Below, in pieces: positions 11,418 to 18,298 of a stretch of DNA of 64,000 nt (within the stretch, counting starts at the first letter, position 1; each line of letters opens with the position of its first letter). This DNA is from Eubacteriales bacterium (lineage in GTDB: Bacteria; Bacillota; Clostridia; Christensenellales; Aristaeellaceae). The DNA lies in assembly GCA_028693055.1 (NCBI GenBank), contig JAQUWD010000005.1:40340-104339 (forward strand), written 5' to 3'. The notes beneath the pieces were generated by a model, which was not told where the DNA came from, did not search any database, and was given only the letters and a program-made list of their open reading frames with translations. Position numbers and translations under genes: made by a program.

Positions 11418-11474
11418 ACGATGTCTATATTTGTCATCATTCGATTCATTTCATTGGAAAGGGAGGATTCATTC

Positions 11475-13064
11475 ATGAGGACTTATTTTAAAAACGCGAT
11501 TCTTTACGACGGCACGGGGGCCGCGCCCATAACGGGCGATCTGCTGGTGGAGGATGACCGCATTCTGGAGGTAGGCGCTATCGACTGCCCACAAGCGGAT
11601 GAAACCATCGATTGCACGGGATTGGCTTTAGCCCCGGGGTTTATCGACGCGCATTCCCATAACGACTGGTTCACCGCCCGAAAGAATGCCGGCAGCTTCT
11701 TCCACTCCTTTTTAGAACAGGGTATTACCACGCAGGTAACGGGTAATTGCGGCTTTTCTCCTTTCGGCTACGACAAGGATACCTCGCATAAGGCGCTCAT
11801 CGGCAGCGGACTTTTCGCCCAGGGCGACGCGGAGGGCGAGCTAAGCACTTTAGGCGGCTGGATGGATGCGTCAGGCACGCCATACGTAAACATCATTCCC
11901 ATGCTGGGGCATATGAGCAGCCGCATCAGTTTAGCCGGGTATGAAAATCGACCGCTCAGCGAGGACGAGCTGAAAAAGCAGGACGCACTGCTTCGCAGGG
12001 AGCTAGACGCGGGAGCGGCGGGGATTTCCTTCGGGCTGATGTACGAGCCGGATCGCTACGCGCCTTACGAGGAATTAAAGCGTGCGGCGAAAATTGCCAA
12101 GGAGTACGGCCGAATCGTAACAGTGCACGAGCGCGCCTGCTCCGCAGCCAGCACCAGCTACAACCCGCCCGTGGGCGGACGAGCCCATAACCTGCGGGCA
12201 TTGGATGAAATGCTGAAGCTAACCCGGGAGACGGGGGTGGATGTGCAGTACAGCCACCTGATCTTTGTGGGCGAAAGCAGTTGGAAAACAGCGGACGAGG
12301 CGCTTCGATTGATCCGCGAAATCAATGACGAGGGCTATTCCTTCTTCTACGATAGCTACGCCATGCTTTACGGCGCATCGGTGATCACGGTGGTGCTGCC
12401 GGAATGGTATTTGTCCTTGCCAAAGGAGAAGCGCTCCTCGCCCCTCACCTTTGCGCGGCTTACGGTAGAAATCGGCGTGACAAAGAAGCTGCTGGGCTTC
12501 AACTTTAACGATATTCAAATTACATGGGCGGGAGAAGCGCATAGAGACATAATCGGAAAGACGGTAAGCCAAATTGCGAAGGAATGGAAGGTTTCCGATC
12601 TGCGGGCTTATTTGAAGCTTGTGGACGACACCAACGGGCAGGGACGCGTGTTGATGTATAAATACCTGACTGACGATCTATTGAAACGTCTGATGGCGGA
12701 CGAACACTGTTTGTATATGACGGATGCATGGATTGACGAGAGCGGAATGAATAACCCGGCGGCGTTTTGCTGTTTCCCGGAGTTTTTGCGGATTGGGCGG
12801 GAGAGAAATAACATGGCGCGGGTCATTCGGCAGATGACGGGAGCAACGGCAGATCGGTTTAAGGTTAAGGAGCGTGGATATTTGAAAGAGAATGGATATG
12901 CTGATCTGGTGTTGTTTGATCCTAAGAATGTGGCGGCTGGAGAGGATTTGAATGGGCAGCCGGTGGGAATAAAGAGGGTGTATGTGAATGGAAAATTGGC
13001 GGTAGAGAATGGCGTGGGGATGGATGTGAGAGGTGGGAGATTTTTGTTGGTGGAAAGTAAGTAA
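11475..13064 (+). CDS. N-acyl-D-amino-acid deacylase-type amidohydrolase
   Basis: A 529-residue metal-dependent hydrolase of the D-aminoacylase/dihydroorotase branch, expected to remove acyl groups from D-amino acids or a related substrate in the cytoplasm. The ATG at 11475 (MRTYFKNAILYDGTG) has GGGAGG eight bases upstream. Motifs: PGFIDAHSHND (metal-binding HxH), TQVTGNCGFSPFG (the Cys ligand typical of D-aminoacylases), TVHERAC, VQYSHL, and a C-terminal FPEFLRIGRER ... RQMTGATADRFKVKERGYLKENGYADLVLFDP closing the composite beta-sandwich. It is monocistronic, divergent from the gcv operon and followed by repeats. The substrate cannot be read from sequence; a role in D-amino acid or peptidoglycan-fragment salvage is possible. 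Confidence 0.85.
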   Translation: MRTYFKNAILYDGTGAAPITGDLLVEDDRILEVGAIDCPQADETIDCTGLALAPGFIDAHSHNDWFTARKNAGSFFHSFLEQGITTQVTGNCGFSPFGYDKDTSHKALIGSGLFAQGDAEGELSTLGGWMDASGTPYVNIIPMLGHMSSRISLAGYENRPLSEDELKKQDALLRRELDAGAAGISFGLMYEPDRYAPYEELKRAAKIAKEYGRIVTVHERACSAASTSYNPPVGGRAHNLRALDEMLKLTRETGVDVQYSHLIFVGESSWKTADEALRLIREINDEGYSFFYDSYAMLYGASVITVVLPEWYLSLPKEKRSSPLTFARLTVEIGVTKKLLGFNFNDIQITWAGEAHRDIIGKTVSQIAKEWKVSDLRAYLKLVDDTNGQGRVLMYKYLTDDLLKRLMADEHCLYMTDAWIDESGMNNPAAFCCFPEFLRIGRERNNMARVIRQMTGATADRFKVKERGYLKENGYADLVLFDPKNVAAGEDLNGQPVGIKRVYVNGKLAVENGVGMDVRGGRFLLVESK

Positions 13065-13080
13065 GGTAATAGGTAAAATA

Positions 13081-13575
13081 GTGGGGGTCAAGGGGCCTCA
13101 GGCCCCTTGCGGGGCTTGGGGCAGCGCCCCATTTCCCCCGTGCCGCAGCACAGTTCCCAAGAGCAATGCTGCCATAGGTAGCGAGCGACACCCACACCCA
13201 ACCATGTTTCATCACACAGAGTGGGGTCAAGGGGCCTCAGGCCCCTTGCGGGGTTTGGGGCAGCGCCCCATTTCCCCGTGCCGCAGCACAATTCCCAAAA
13301 GCAATGCTGCCATAGGTAGCGAGCGACACCCACACCCAACCATGTTTCATCACACAGAGTGGGGTCAAGGGGCCTGAGGCCCCTTGCGGGGCTTGGGGCA
13401 GCGCCCCATTTCCCCCGTGCCGCAGCACAATTCCCAAGAGCAATGCTGCCATAGGCAGCGAGCGACACCCACACCCAACTAGATTTCATCACATAGGGTG
13501 GGTTCAAGGGGCCTCAGGCCCCTTGCGGGGCTTGGGGCAGCGCCCCATTTCCCCGTGCCGCAGCACGCTCCCCCC
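13081..13575. repeat. Tandem array of a 138-139 bp unit, about 3.5 copies
   Basis: The anchor GTCAAGGGGCCT recurs at 13087, 13226 and 13364, with a variant (GTTCAAGGGGCCT) at 13502, so the period is 138-139 bp. Each unit holds the palindrome AAGGGGCCTCAGGCCCCTT (AGGCCTGAGG variant in copy 3), a second GGGGC...GCCCC palindrome, GTGCCGCAGCAC, and ATGTTTCATCACA. The fourth copy is cut off after GTGCCGCAGCAC. Copies differ by only a few bases, so the array is recent or homogenised. Long ORFs across it on both strands are artefacts of its GC-rich composition. Confidence 0.9.
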
Positions 13576-13858: not shown

Positions 13859-16249
13859 CTAGGCTCTTATCGCCGCTCCATGCTTATCATCGCAAACCTT
13901 CCTAACCTTATCCATGGCCTTCTGCACCTCTTCATCCGTCAATGTCCGATCATTAGCACGGAAAATCAATGAAAACGCCACGCTCTTCTTCCCTAACCCT
14001 ACCTGCAAGCCCCGATACACATCAAACATCTTGATGCTCTCCAACAAATTACCCGCCGCTTTGCGCATATCCGCCATCAACGGCCCTACGCATACGCTCT
14101 CGTCCATCACCAACGCCAAATCGCGGCTCATCGCCGGGAACCGGGGCAGCGGCTTTACCTCGCCCATGGGCTTTGCATACTCCAATAACTGCGCCAAATT
14201 GATCTCCGCCACAACAGCCCGTCTGGTCATGCCAAACCGTTCCATCACCGCCGGATGAATCTCGCCAATCGTTGCAAATACAACCCCGCCCCGGGTAAGC
14301 CGCGCACAACGTCCGGGATGATAGTAGCAGTCTCCGCCCGCCTCTGCTTGGCAAGCAATCCCCTGCCCATTCAACACCGCTTCCGCCGCTCCGCGAACCG
14401 TGAAGAAATCCACCTGATCGCCATAAGCGCCCAAGCATAAGGTCTGCGTCTCGGTGGGAAGCCCCTCCTCCGTAGGATGATGGGGATCAAATACCGCCGC
14501 CATCTCGTAAAGCGAAGCCTGCTCCGTCATGTGATTCATGTTGAAGGATAAGGTTTTTAGCATGTCGCACACCAGCGTAGGCCGCATAACCGCCGTATCC
14601 TCTCCCAAGGGATTGCGAATAGCCATGGGCTTCATGCGCAAATCGTCCTCCGGCAAGCCAAGCTTGGCGATTTCCTTCAAGCCGGTGAAGCTGTAGTTCA
14701 TAATCTCTAAATAACCGAAGCCGTTTAGCATCCGCCCAACTTTATTCTTCAGATGCTTCATGGGGCTGACCCCGCCCTGCGTAGTGCTGCCCCGAAGCGG
14801 CGTTGCGCCGATATGATCATAGCCGTACATCCGCAAGCATTCCTCGCAAATGTCCGCTTCGCCGTCCAAATCCTCCCGGAAGGCAGGAACCTTTACGCTA
14901 AGCACGTCTCCCTCTAAGCTCGCTTCAAAGAATAGCTTGTTTAAAATACGCACCATCGCGTCGGCAGGAATCTCTACACCGGCTCGGCTCTGAATCCGCT
15001 TTACGCTGGCGGTGATCTGCTGCTGCGCCTTGGGCGCGGGGTAATGATCGATCACGCCCGTCACCACATCGCCGGCGTCTAGCTCGTTCACCAAATGGCA
15101 AGCCCGGTCAAGCGCTTCCATAACGGTTGCCGCGCATACGCCCCGCTCGAAGCGGCCGCTGCTCTCGGTACGTAGGCCCAGCGCACGGCTGGTTAAACGA
15201 ATGGCGGTACGGTCGAAGGCCGCGCACTCGAACATCACCTCTTGCGTGCCCTCCGTAATCTCGCTTTCCTCGCCGCCCATAATGCCCGCAAGTCCCGTGG
15301 CGGCGCTTTCGTCACAAATGACCAAATCCTCTGTGCGAAGCTTCCGCTCCACGCCGTCTAAGGTTGTCAGCATTTCGCCTGCGTGGGCGCGGCGCACCAC
15401 AATCTGCCGCCCCTTCACCTTGCCCAAATCAAAGGCGTGCATGGGATGGCCGTATTCCAGCATGATATAGTTGGTAATATCCACGATATTGTTAATCGCC
15501 CGAAGCCCGGCAGCGTGTAGATACTTGCGCATCCACAGCGGTGATTGCCCAATGCGCACATTCTTGATCACCCGGGCAGTATAGCGAGGGCAGAACATAT
15601 CGTCCTCCACCCGCACCTTCACCTCGGCATGGACGTCTCCGCCCACTTCCCGAACGGAGGTATCCGGCCCGTGATATTCCGTCCCCATGGCGGCGGCGGT
15701 TTCCCGGGCAATGCCGACGGCGCAAAGGCAATCAGGCCGGTTCGCCAAAATCTCAAAATCTACGGCGGTGTCGTCAATGCCCAAAATGGGCTTCACGTCG
15801 CTGCCTAAGGGATATTCTTCGTTAAAGATCAGCAATCCCTCGTCGCCAACGCTGGGGTACAGCTCCTGCGGCACCTTTAATTCCGTGGCGGAACAAAGCA
15901 TTCCTTCGCTGATCATGCCCCGCAGCTTGCCCTTCTTGATCTTCACACCATCGGGCAGACGCGCGCCGTCTAACGCCACAGGCACTAGCTTGCCAACGCC
16001 CACGTTGGGTGCGCCGCACACGATATGCAGCGGCTCCTCGCCGCCCACATCCACCGTGCATTGGTGCAAATGAGTGCCCTCCACATCCTCACAGGTGAGC
16101 ACCTTTCCCACGACCACCTTTTCCATACCGCCGCTAACGTCTTCCGTGCCCTCTACTCCGGTGCCGGACATAATCATCCGTTCCTCGTACTCCTTGGGAC
16201 TAACGGGAATCTCCGCATACTCGCGGATCATATTCATACCTAATTTCAA
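13859..16249 (-). CDS. pheT: Phenylalanine--tRNA ligase beta subunit
   Basis: The 796-residue beta chain of the alpha2-beta2 synthetase that charges tRNA-Phe. The start is TTG at 16249 (MKLGMNMIREYAEIPVS), supported by AAGGAGG nine bases upstream and by the family's usual MKxxxNWLxEY opening. Domains: EMAP-like tRNA-binding region (VVGKVLTCEDVEGTHLHQCTVDVG ... GMLCSATEL), B3/B4 editing region with NNIVDITNYIMLEYGHPMHAFD, B5 (AEICEECLRMYGYDHIG neighbourhood) and the C-terminal anticodon-binding fold (PLPRFPAMSRDLALVMDESV). Unusually, 220 bp of palindromic sequence separates it from pheS; in most genomes the two are nearly adjacent. It is last in the T-box operon. Confidence 0.97.
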   Translation of the reverse strand: MKLGMNMIREYAEIPVSPKEYEERMIMSGTGVEGTEDVSGGMEKVVVGKVLTCEDVEGTHLHQCTVDVGGEEPLHIVCGAPNVGVGKLVPVALDGARLPDGVKIKKGKLRGMISEGMLCSATELKVPQELYPSVGDEGLLIFNEEYPLGSDVKPILGIDDTAVDFEILANRPDCLCAVGIARETAAAMGTEYHGPDTSVREVGGDVHAEVKVRVEDDMFCPRYTARVIKNVRIGQSPLWMRKYLHAAGLRAINNIVDITNYIMLEYGHPMHAFDLGKVKGRQIVVRRAHAGEMLTTLDGVERKLRTEDLVICDESAATGLAGIMGGEESEITEGTQEVMFECAAFDRTAIRLTSRALGLRTESSGRFERGVCAATVMEALDRACHLVNELDAGDVVTGVIDHYPAPKAQQQITASVKRIQSRAGVEIPADAMVRILNKLFFEASLEGDVLSVKVPAFREDLDGEADICEECLRMYGYDHIGATPLRGSTTQGGVSPMKHLKNKVGRMLNGFGYLEIMNYSFTGLKEIAKLGLPEDDLRMKPMAIRNPLGEDTAVMRPTLVCDMLKTLSFNMNHMTEQASLYEMAAVFDPHHPTEEGLPTETQTLCLGAYGDQVDFFTVRGAAEAVLNGQGIACQAEAGGDCYYHPGRCARLTRGGVVFATIGEIHPAVMERFGMTRRAVVAEINLAQLLEYAKPMGEVKPLPRFPAMSRDLALVMDESVCVGPLMADMRKAAGNLLESIKMFDVYRGLQVGLGKKSVAFSLIFRANDRTLTDEEVQKAMDKVRKVCDDKHGAAIRA

Positions 16250-16469: not shown

Positions 16470-17498
16470 TTACCTCAGCTGCCCCAGCAGCCTTGCGTCG
16501 CCTTCGTATAAAAGACGCATGTCGGTCAAACCGTAGCGCTTCATGGCGATACGCTCCAAACCGATACCGAAGGCGAAGCCGCTGTATTTGTGGCTGTCAA
16601 TGCCGCACATCTCAAGCACCTTGGGGTTGACCATGCCGCAGCCCAAAACTTCCACCCAGCCGGTGTCCTTGCAGATACGGCAGCCTTTGCCGTGGCAAGC
16701 AGAGCAGGTCAAATCCACCTCGGCGCTGGGCTCTGTGAAGGGGAAGAAGCTGGGACGGAAGCGAGTGGATACGTCCGCGCCGTAAAGCTTTTTGGCAAAC
16801 GCCTCCAAGGTTCCGCGAAGATCGGACATGCTTACGTTTTCGTCTACAACCAAGCCCTCCATCTGGTGGAAAACGGGGCTGTGGGTCGCATCCACCTCGT
16901 CGGCCCGATAAACCCGACCGGGGCAAATAATACGAATCGGCGGCTTGCGCGTCAGCATGGCGCGAGCCTGCATGGGGCTGGTGTGAGTGCGAAGAACGAT
17001 GTTGTCGTCCATATAAAAGGTGTCCTGAGCGTCCCGAGCAGGATGATTCTTCGGGAGGTTCATCAGCTCAAAATTATAATGATCCAGCTCCACCTCAGGG
17101 CCTTCCATTACCTCAAAGCCTAAGCCGGAGAAGCAATCGATCAGCTCATCCATCACCAGCGTGATCGGATGGGCGCTGCCCGTCACAGGCAGATCGTGGG
17201 GCTCGGTCACGTCGATGATTTCGGACTGGATGGCGGCCTCCCGCTCGGCGGCTTGAATGGCGTTAAGACGCTGATTCATGCGCTCTGTCAGCCATTCCCG
17301 AACCTCGTTAATCTGTGCGCCTACCTTGGGGCGCTCCTCGGGCGCTAGCTGCCCCATTCCCTTTAGTAGGGCCGTCAGCTCCCCTTTCTTGCCCAACACC
17401 TTTACCCGCAGGGCTTCCAGCCCGGCAGAGCCGTTTAGATCGTTAAGCTCCTTGTCCACCTGCTCTTTTAATTCCCGCAGGGTATCCACTACTGACAT
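16470..17498 (-). CDS. pheS: Phenylalanine--tRNA ligase alpha subunit
   Basis: The 342-residue catalytic subunit of phenylalanyl-tRNA synthetase. It has an N-terminal coiled region (ALRVKVLGKKGELTALLKGMGQLAPEERPKVG), the class II motif region HPITLVMDELIDCFSGLGFEVMEGPEVE, motif 2 (SPVFHQMEGLVVDENVSMSDLRG), a Cys-rich loop common in the family (TCSACHGKGCRICKDTGW), and motif 3 (SGFAFGIGLERIAMKRYG). AGGAGG precedes the ATG. It begins directly after the stop of the DUF523 gene, under control of the T-box upstream of that gene. Confidence 0.97.
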   Translation of the reverse strand: MSVVDTLRELKEQVDKELNDLNGSAGLEALRVKVLGKKGELTALLKGMGQLAPEERPKVGAQINEVREWLTERMNQRLNAIQAAEREAAIQSEIIDVTEPHDLPVTGSAHPITLVMDELIDCFSGLGFEVMEGPEVELDHYNFELMNLPKNHPARDAQDTFYMDDNIVLRTHTSPMQARAMLTRKPPIRIICPGRVYRADEVDATHSPVFHQMEGLVVDENVSMSDLRGTLEAFAKKLYGADVSTRFRPSFFPFTEPSAEVDLTCSACHGKGCRICKDTGWVEVLGCGMVNPKVLEMCGIDSHKYSGFAFGIGLERIAMKRYGLTDMRLLYEGDARLLGQLR

Positions 17499-17957
17499 TT
17501 ACCGTTCCTCCTCTTCTTGTGCCATCGTGATCAAGCGTTCCAGCTGAGATTCTCCAAAAACCTGTATACCGTTCTGTTGAAGGCTTTGGGCGCACACGCC
17601 GTCGCCGGACGCGAGCGCCCCGGAAAAGCTGCCGTCGTAAATCTGCCCCGCGCCGCAGGACGGGCTGCGTTCCTTTAAAAGCGCCCGCCTACAGTTAAAA
17701 AATTGCGCCAAGCGCAAGGCCTCCGCCGCGCCCCGCTCATAAGCGGCGGTCACGTCAACGCCCGCCTGAGTAGTAATTTGCTCCCCAACCCGTTCGGCGG
17801 GGGGCCGGGGCGTGGGCAATCCGCCCATGATTTCTGGGCAAACAGGAATCAAATGCCAGCGCTCCTTCAAGCGTTCCATTCCCTCCACAGGCTTGCAGCC
17901 GCCGTCGTAGCGACAGCGCACCCCTAGCAAGCATGCGCTCACCAGCAAATTCTCCAA
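17499..17957 (-). CDS. DUF523 (TudS/YbbK-like) protein, first gene of the T-box operon
   Basis: About 152 residues from a TTG at 17957 (ENLLVSACLLGVRCRYDGG), chosen because AAAGGAGG lies seven bases upstream and the length fits the family; the ORF-track start reads into the T-box. Hallmarks are SACLLGVRCRYDGG, VCPEIMGGLPTPRPPAE and LLKERSPSCGAGQIYDG. DUF523 members include TudS thiouracil desulfidases, which hold an iron-sulfur cluster on three cysteines; candidate ligands here are in CLLG, VCPE and SPSCG. The substrate of this member is unknown. Placement between the Phe T-box and pheS, with zero spacing to pheS, suggests co-regulation with phenylalanine charging. Confidence 0.85.
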   Translation of the reverse strand: MENLLVSACLLGVRCRYDGGCKPVEGMERLKERWHLIPVCPEIMGGLPTPRPPAERVGEQITTQAGVDVTAAYERGAAEALRLAQFFNCRRALLKERSPSCGAGQIYDGSFSGALASGDGVCAQSLQQNGIQVFGESQLERLITMAQEEEER

Positions 17958-17988
17958 GGACGCTCCTCCTTTGCGGACGGAAATCACA

Positions 17989-18265
17989 GAAAAAGCCCGC
18001 ATCCCCAATGGGACGCAGGCCGCGTGATACCACCCAAATTTCGTACGGGCGAACAAAACGCCGATACGCTCTCAGCCGCTAACGGGGCTCAACCGTTTCC
18101 TCTTACAGCTTTCGTTTCGGAGGAAAGGCTCGGAAGCGAATTTCCCGCAAGCGGCGCAGGCGGCTTTCAGCGTGGGAATTGCTTCCCCTGCCGCCCTCTC
18201 TTTTCGGCGCTTGGTTGCCGGGCGTTGGTCTTCGTCATCGCCAAGCCGCTACAAATGCGGCTTGG
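17989..18265 (-). ncRNA. T-box leader (probable Phe specifier)
   Basis: The minus strand carries AAUUUGGGUGGUAUCACGCG (T-box core GGGUGGUAUCACGCG at 18035-18021), which pairs with the NCCA end of uncharged tRNA. It is followed by the terminator GCCUGCGUCCC-AUUG-GGGAUGCGGGCUUUUU (18020-17989). In Stem I, GGAAGC/GCUUCC form a helix, and UUC, a Phe codon, sits just 5' of GCUUCC at 18140-18138; this is my candidate specifier. The downstream genes (DUF523, pheS, pheT) fit control by tRNA-Phe. The full Stem I fold was not computed. Confidence 0.88.
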
Positions 18266-18266
18266 C
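18240..18266. repeat. 10-bp perfect inverted repeat at the T-box transcription start
   Basis: GCCAAGCCGC and GCGGCTTGGC flank a 7-base loop. The repeat begins four bases downstream of the -10 box of the T-box promoter, so it overlaps the expected start site. It may be a repressor operator, a 5' hairpin of the leader or the terminator of the sulfatase gene upstream on the same strand. Confidence 0.5.
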
Positions 18267-18269
18267 AGT

Positions 18270-18298
18270 ATTATAGCAAAAGGGCGCAGGGTTTGCAA
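18270..18298 (-). promoter_or_regulatory. Promoter of the T-box-DUF523-pheST operon
   Basis: On the minus strand TTGCAA (18298-18293), 17 bases, then TATAAT (18275-18270), with a TGC extended -10 dinucleotide. It lies 17 bases after the sulfatase stop codon. Confidence 0.8.

Follow-up and report, generated by a model that had tools for sequence, protein, structure and literature searches.

A stand-alone tudS gene as first cistron of a predicted tRNA-Phe T-box pheST operon

Organization of the operon

The window, a stretch of 64,000 nt, contains what we take, with a probability of about 75%, to be an ordinary pheST operon controlled by a tRNA-Phe T-box, in which a housekeeping stand-alone tudS (DUF523) gene with a salvage role came to lie as the first cistron. 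Expression of tudS would then be Phe-responsive, and its function is probably not Phe-specific. Inspection of the sequence together with profile searches gave the order promoter, T-box leader, terminator, ribosome binding site (RBS), tudS, pheS and pheT on the minus strand (18298-13859).

The tudS gene (17499..17957, minus strand, as all elements of the operon) codes for 152 aa, most likely from a TTG start codon at 17957 preceded by the RBS AAAGGAGG at 17972-17965. A longer frame from 18056 was rejected, as it would extend back through the terminator and the antiterminator. Downstream follow pheS (16470..17498; TIGR00468, 332 bits) and pheT (13859..16249; TIGR00472, 730 bits). The TAA stop of tudS (17501-17499) abuts the ATG of pheS (17498), leaving an intergenic gap of 0, just as a preliminary description of this DNA had stated for the DUF523 gene between T-box and pheS. 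The pheS RBS AGAGGAGGAA (17505..17514) is located within the last tudS codons (peptide tail EEEER) and is similar to the pheS RBS GAGGAGGAA of members of the genus without tudS. The source genome holds this one tudS gene and 11 T-box matches. Inside tudS, at 17717-17697 (minus), lies a terminator-like hairpin followed by six T (TTGCGC-TTG-GCGCAA-TTTTTT), which could reduce read-through into pheST.

The T-box leader and its specifier

Transcription presumably starts from a promoter TTGCAA-N17-TATAAT with extended TG (18270..18298, minus, first base 18298); similar hexamers are found upstream of the other pheST leaders in the genus. The leader from Stem I to the antiterminator (18006..18247, minus) matches RF00230 over its full length (model 1-219) with 70.1 bits and an E-value of 2.9e-15. 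Since this score lies below the Rfam gathering score of 93, a default Rfam scan missed the leader, and the match came from an e-value scan. The leaders before pheS at all 16 loci found in the genus score between 39.7 and 97.4 bits. The T-box motif GGGUGGUAUCACG (18023..18035, minus) is conserved in the genus, and the motif GGGTGGTATCACG occurs once in the 64 kb, with 0.04 instances expected. The discriminator base of tRNA-Phe is A73, and the variable antiterminator base is a matching U. A competing intrinsic terminator, as is characteristic for the T-box class, is present as a hairpin with T-run at 17990..18021 (minus; fold z = -4.3).

The specifier codon UUC (Phe) is located at 18138..18140 (minus). 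Unconstrained minimum free energy folding of the single sequence, be it the whole leader or Stem I alone, did not recover a canonical Stem I. For this reason we used comparative pairing counts, and the placement of the specifier rests on the Rfam model and on an alignment of 17 leaders, 16 from the genus and one from a sister genus. In 17 of 17 the helices 15-18/116-119 and 26-29/105-108, which flank the specifier loop, are both paired, and the 3' side of the loop reads AUUC. As AUUC stands in the loop between two paired helices in every leader, UUC is identified as the specifier. These flanking helices never vary and therefore give support by pairing but none by covariation; compensatory changes occur at two pairs of the apical helix. 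The T-box, the terminator and the UUC at the expected specifier position, as previously described, are thus confirmed, and the alignment places UUC and no other codon in the loop.

With respect to Stem I, UUC specifier, antiterminator, terminator and downstream pheST, the locus is like other RF00230 elements upstream of pheST; for Clostridioides difficile, too, a T-box before pheS is listed (PMC11477304). It differs from the usual T-box pheST operon in that the first cistron is neither a synthetase nor an amino acid gene. Judged by the leader, control of tudS by a Phe-T-box is well supported. Uncharged tRNA-Phe would recognise the UUC of Stem I and stabilise the antiterminator through its NCCA end, and transcription would continue through tudS, pheS and pheT as one predicted transcript; charged tRNA-Phe would lead to termination before tudS. 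In the open-access literature we did not find DUF523 together with a T-box, and the listed titles and abstracts of papers mentioning both DUF523 and an operon do not describe this arrangement. As to novelty, the arrangement was thus not found described, but a link between the TudS family and tRNA turnover, of which the preliminary description knew no report, has already been published.

The TudS protein

PF04463 (147.8 bits, cut-off 34.7) was the sole domain found in the protein. The domain search gave no DUF1722 domain, and we therefore assign the protein to the stand-alone TudS form. The solved homologue (PDB 6Z92; phmmer E 7.9e-40) spans nearly the whole protein. In TudS, C10, C43 and C104 hold the cluster, and E45, S101 and S103 are catalytic (PMC10611767). 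They align with C9, C40 and C101 and with E42, S98 and S100 here, so that all six key residues are kept. Thus, family, [4Fe-4S] cysteines, catalytic Glu and Ser and the single domain are shared with the characterized enzyme; unlike there, the gene sits under a T-box, and the activity is predicted from sequence.

In its characterized members, stand-alone TudS prefers free 4-thio-UMP and recycles 4-thio-UMP derived from tRNA (PMC10611767). The source genome also has ThiI (347 bits), which is needed for the synthesis of s4U. The product of tudS most likely desulfurates 4-thio-UMP set free when tRNAs with s4U8, of whatever kind, are degraded; this would return UMP and prevent misincorporation of 4-thio-UTP. 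We found no evidence of a specific relation between the enzyme and tRNA-Phe.

Distribution and history of the arrangement

The genus was sampled with 17 genomes, and pheS was found in 16 of them. The T-box-pheST unit is the constant part, with a T-box before pheST at 16 of the 16 loci, and tudS is the variable part: it lies between T-box and pheS in three of the 16 (G000, which is the present genome, G057 and G191), is located elsewhere in eight genus-mates and is absent from six. Hence, the linkage of DUF523 and pheS is not confined to one genome. ThiI is present in all 17 genomes, with or without tudS. In six of the eight unlinked cases (G126, G159, G144, G200, G203, G205) tudS lies behind pyruvate kinase, which was identified by Pfam in G126 and by resemblance in the other five; in G204 and G171 the surroundings are different ones.

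Beyond the genus, no further T-box-tudS-pheS case appeared among the matches listed for 200 genomes of the family, the places being compared by eye and the pheS listing covering the stronger matches. Of 240 genomes from across the phylum, 138 gave a tudS match, and in 131 of those checked pheS was present as well; tudS directly before pheS was found in none of the 131. The arrangement is seen in few relatives only and therefore looks more like a passenger than like a new regulatory link. The frequent position behind pyruvate kinase in the unlinked genus-mates favours a passenger as well, so that control of TudS by Phe would be largely incidental.

In the pheST tree, G000 is the sister of a group of G057 and G191 together with five tudS-less genomes. 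This topology can be explained by two gains or by a single gain together with a loss. In the tudS tree the linked genes stand apart, but a tree holding them in one clade is not significantly worse (p-AU = 0.27). The tudS-pheS junction is not the same in the three genomes: in G000 the last codons of tudS contain the pheS RBS, whereas G057 and G191 have a spacer of about 35 nt between the tudS stop and the ATG of pheS, and this spacer carries its own RBS. Moreover, the tudS-less relatives have their spacer in common with an outgroup genus. Together, the differing junctions and the spacer shared with the outgroup mildly favour two gains.

Looser pheST-tudS runs and the possibility of adaptive coupling

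A looser association exists in other families. In 8 of the 131 phylum genomes (families f42, f50 and f94) tudS follows pheS on the same strand at a distance of 5-9 kb; by our own estimate about 0.2-0.3 genomes would be expected to have it within 10 kb in this orientation, a comparison among related and thus not independent genomes. The linkage of pheST and tudS exceeds plain chance and leaves room for selection. Six of these loci, all clostridial (L097-L102), show a run pheS-pheT-[zapA]-[polX]-[U32]-mutS2-tudS, in which tudS abuts or overlaps mutS2; the genes were named by Pfam in L100, and for mutS2 also in L097, and otherwise by resemblance of the reading frames. Five loci were scanned with Rfam, and in three of these (L099, L100, L101) a T-box with UUC at the same place precedes pheS. 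The contig of L097 stops before the leader. The Rfam scan gave no T-box in L098, and the T-box motif is missing at the expected place in both L098 and L102. Upstream of pheS in these two (L098 10250-10600, minus; L102 1130-1440, plus) there is a small ORF, LLTADFFWNIFEATGSITAYLIY, which we presume to resemble YqzL-type peptides, and a terminator-like hairpin CTTTCGTC...GACGAAAG, perhaps of a decayed T-box.

As T-box pheST runs with UUC that end in tudS occur elsewhere, the genus is not alone in having tudS in an operon with a Phe T-box. As in the window, tudS and pheST lie in one single-strand run, in L099, L100 and L101 together with a Phe T-box; there, however, tudS comes last with genes in between and not first, and two of the loci are those in which no T-box was detected (L098) or found at the expected place (L102).

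The recurrence of tudS at the end of pheST runs in three other families weakens the case for a passenger and bears on an alternative which we consider unlikely, namely that tudS was recruited so that salvage rises when tRNA is uncharged, with the T-box as a sensor of tRNA stress. The premise is that amino acid starvation raises tRNA decay and the release of 4-thio-UMP. The proximal position in Phe T-box pheST operons of the genus would fit such a coupling, as would the known recycling of tRNA-derived 4-thio-UMP by the stand-alone enzyme (PMC10611767), trees that allow tudS to have been captured twice within the genus, and the terminal tudS in f42 and f94 with a UUC T-box at three loci. However, tudS accompanies unrelated housekeeping genes such as zapA, polX and mutS2 in the other families, and in the f42 loci L098 and L102 the same gene order exists with no T-box detected. 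Furthermore, the six genus members without tudS still have T-box-pheST and ThiI, and scans of unlinked loci from the genus and the family gave no T-box ahead of tudS. A repeated placing of tRNA-nucleotide salvage under tRNA-charging control, as first gene here (perhaps twice) and as last gene elsewhere, by which decay products would be cleared, appears rather improbable to us.

Action on tRNA and integrity of the locus

Very improbable is a direct action on tRNA, for instance the removal of s4U8 from uncharged tRNA-Phe with feedback on T-box sensing or on decay. A precedent exists in RudS, a fusion of TudS and DUF1722, which erases s4U from tRNA (PMC11417400), and tRNA-Phe is the predicted ligand of the leader of this operon. 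The protein shares the TudS domain with RudS but is devoid of DUF1722, and RudS genes are reported from light-responsive operons; for these two reasons we do not consider it a RudS. For stand-alone TudS no activity was seen on thiolated tRNA (PMC10611767, PMC11417400), and its overexpression left the s4U of tRNA unchanged (PMC11417400). Since it is the fusion with DUF1722 that gives activity at the tRNA level, its lack here favours a salvage enzyme encoded by a passenger gene. Of the suggestion that a gene under uncharged tRNA-Phe points to thiolated nucleosides or tRNA turnover, the predicted control by tRNA-Phe thus holds, but the functional link appears weak: most genus members keep tudS elsewhere or lack it with T-box-pheST unchanged, ThiI is there in either case, and the stand-alone form showed no activity on thiolated tRNA in the published work. 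A mis-assembly of the region or a spurious DUF523 frame is scarcely credible, for although the assembly is fragmented (116 contigs), the same order in two other, diverged genomes (tudS about 58%, pheS about 85% identical) contradicts this, and the frame is intact, with RBS and key residues.

Provided that expression follows the T-box, a gene for the recycling of tRNA breakdown products would be induced by one specific uncharged tRNA, and the operon would offer a natural system in which to look for a connection between tRNA charging stress and the salvage of tRNA nucleotides. In the likelier case that tudS is a passenger, the locus illustrates clearly how a T-box operon gained an unrelated cistron while the riboswitch stayed unchanged.

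Additional observations

Six loci (L042, L043, L044, L047, L048 and L058), from tudS-less genus members and a sister genus, have a common spacer element around CTCAAATTC between terminator and pheS, which is not accounted for by the T-box. L078 (1498-2367) has an in-frame fusion of tudS with a GNAT-like acetyltransferase, for which the related loci L004 and L077 have a separate gene after tudS. Within the window, frames on both strands of 13033-13507 contain repeated peptide stretches, e.g. ERHPHPTMFHHTEWGQGASGPLRG, which points to a short direct repeat of the DNA in the interval that separates pheT from an amidohydrolase-like gene (11421-13064). Finally, tandem glycine riboswitch aptamers (60.1 and 33.3 bits) are located at 11235-11073 on the minus strand.
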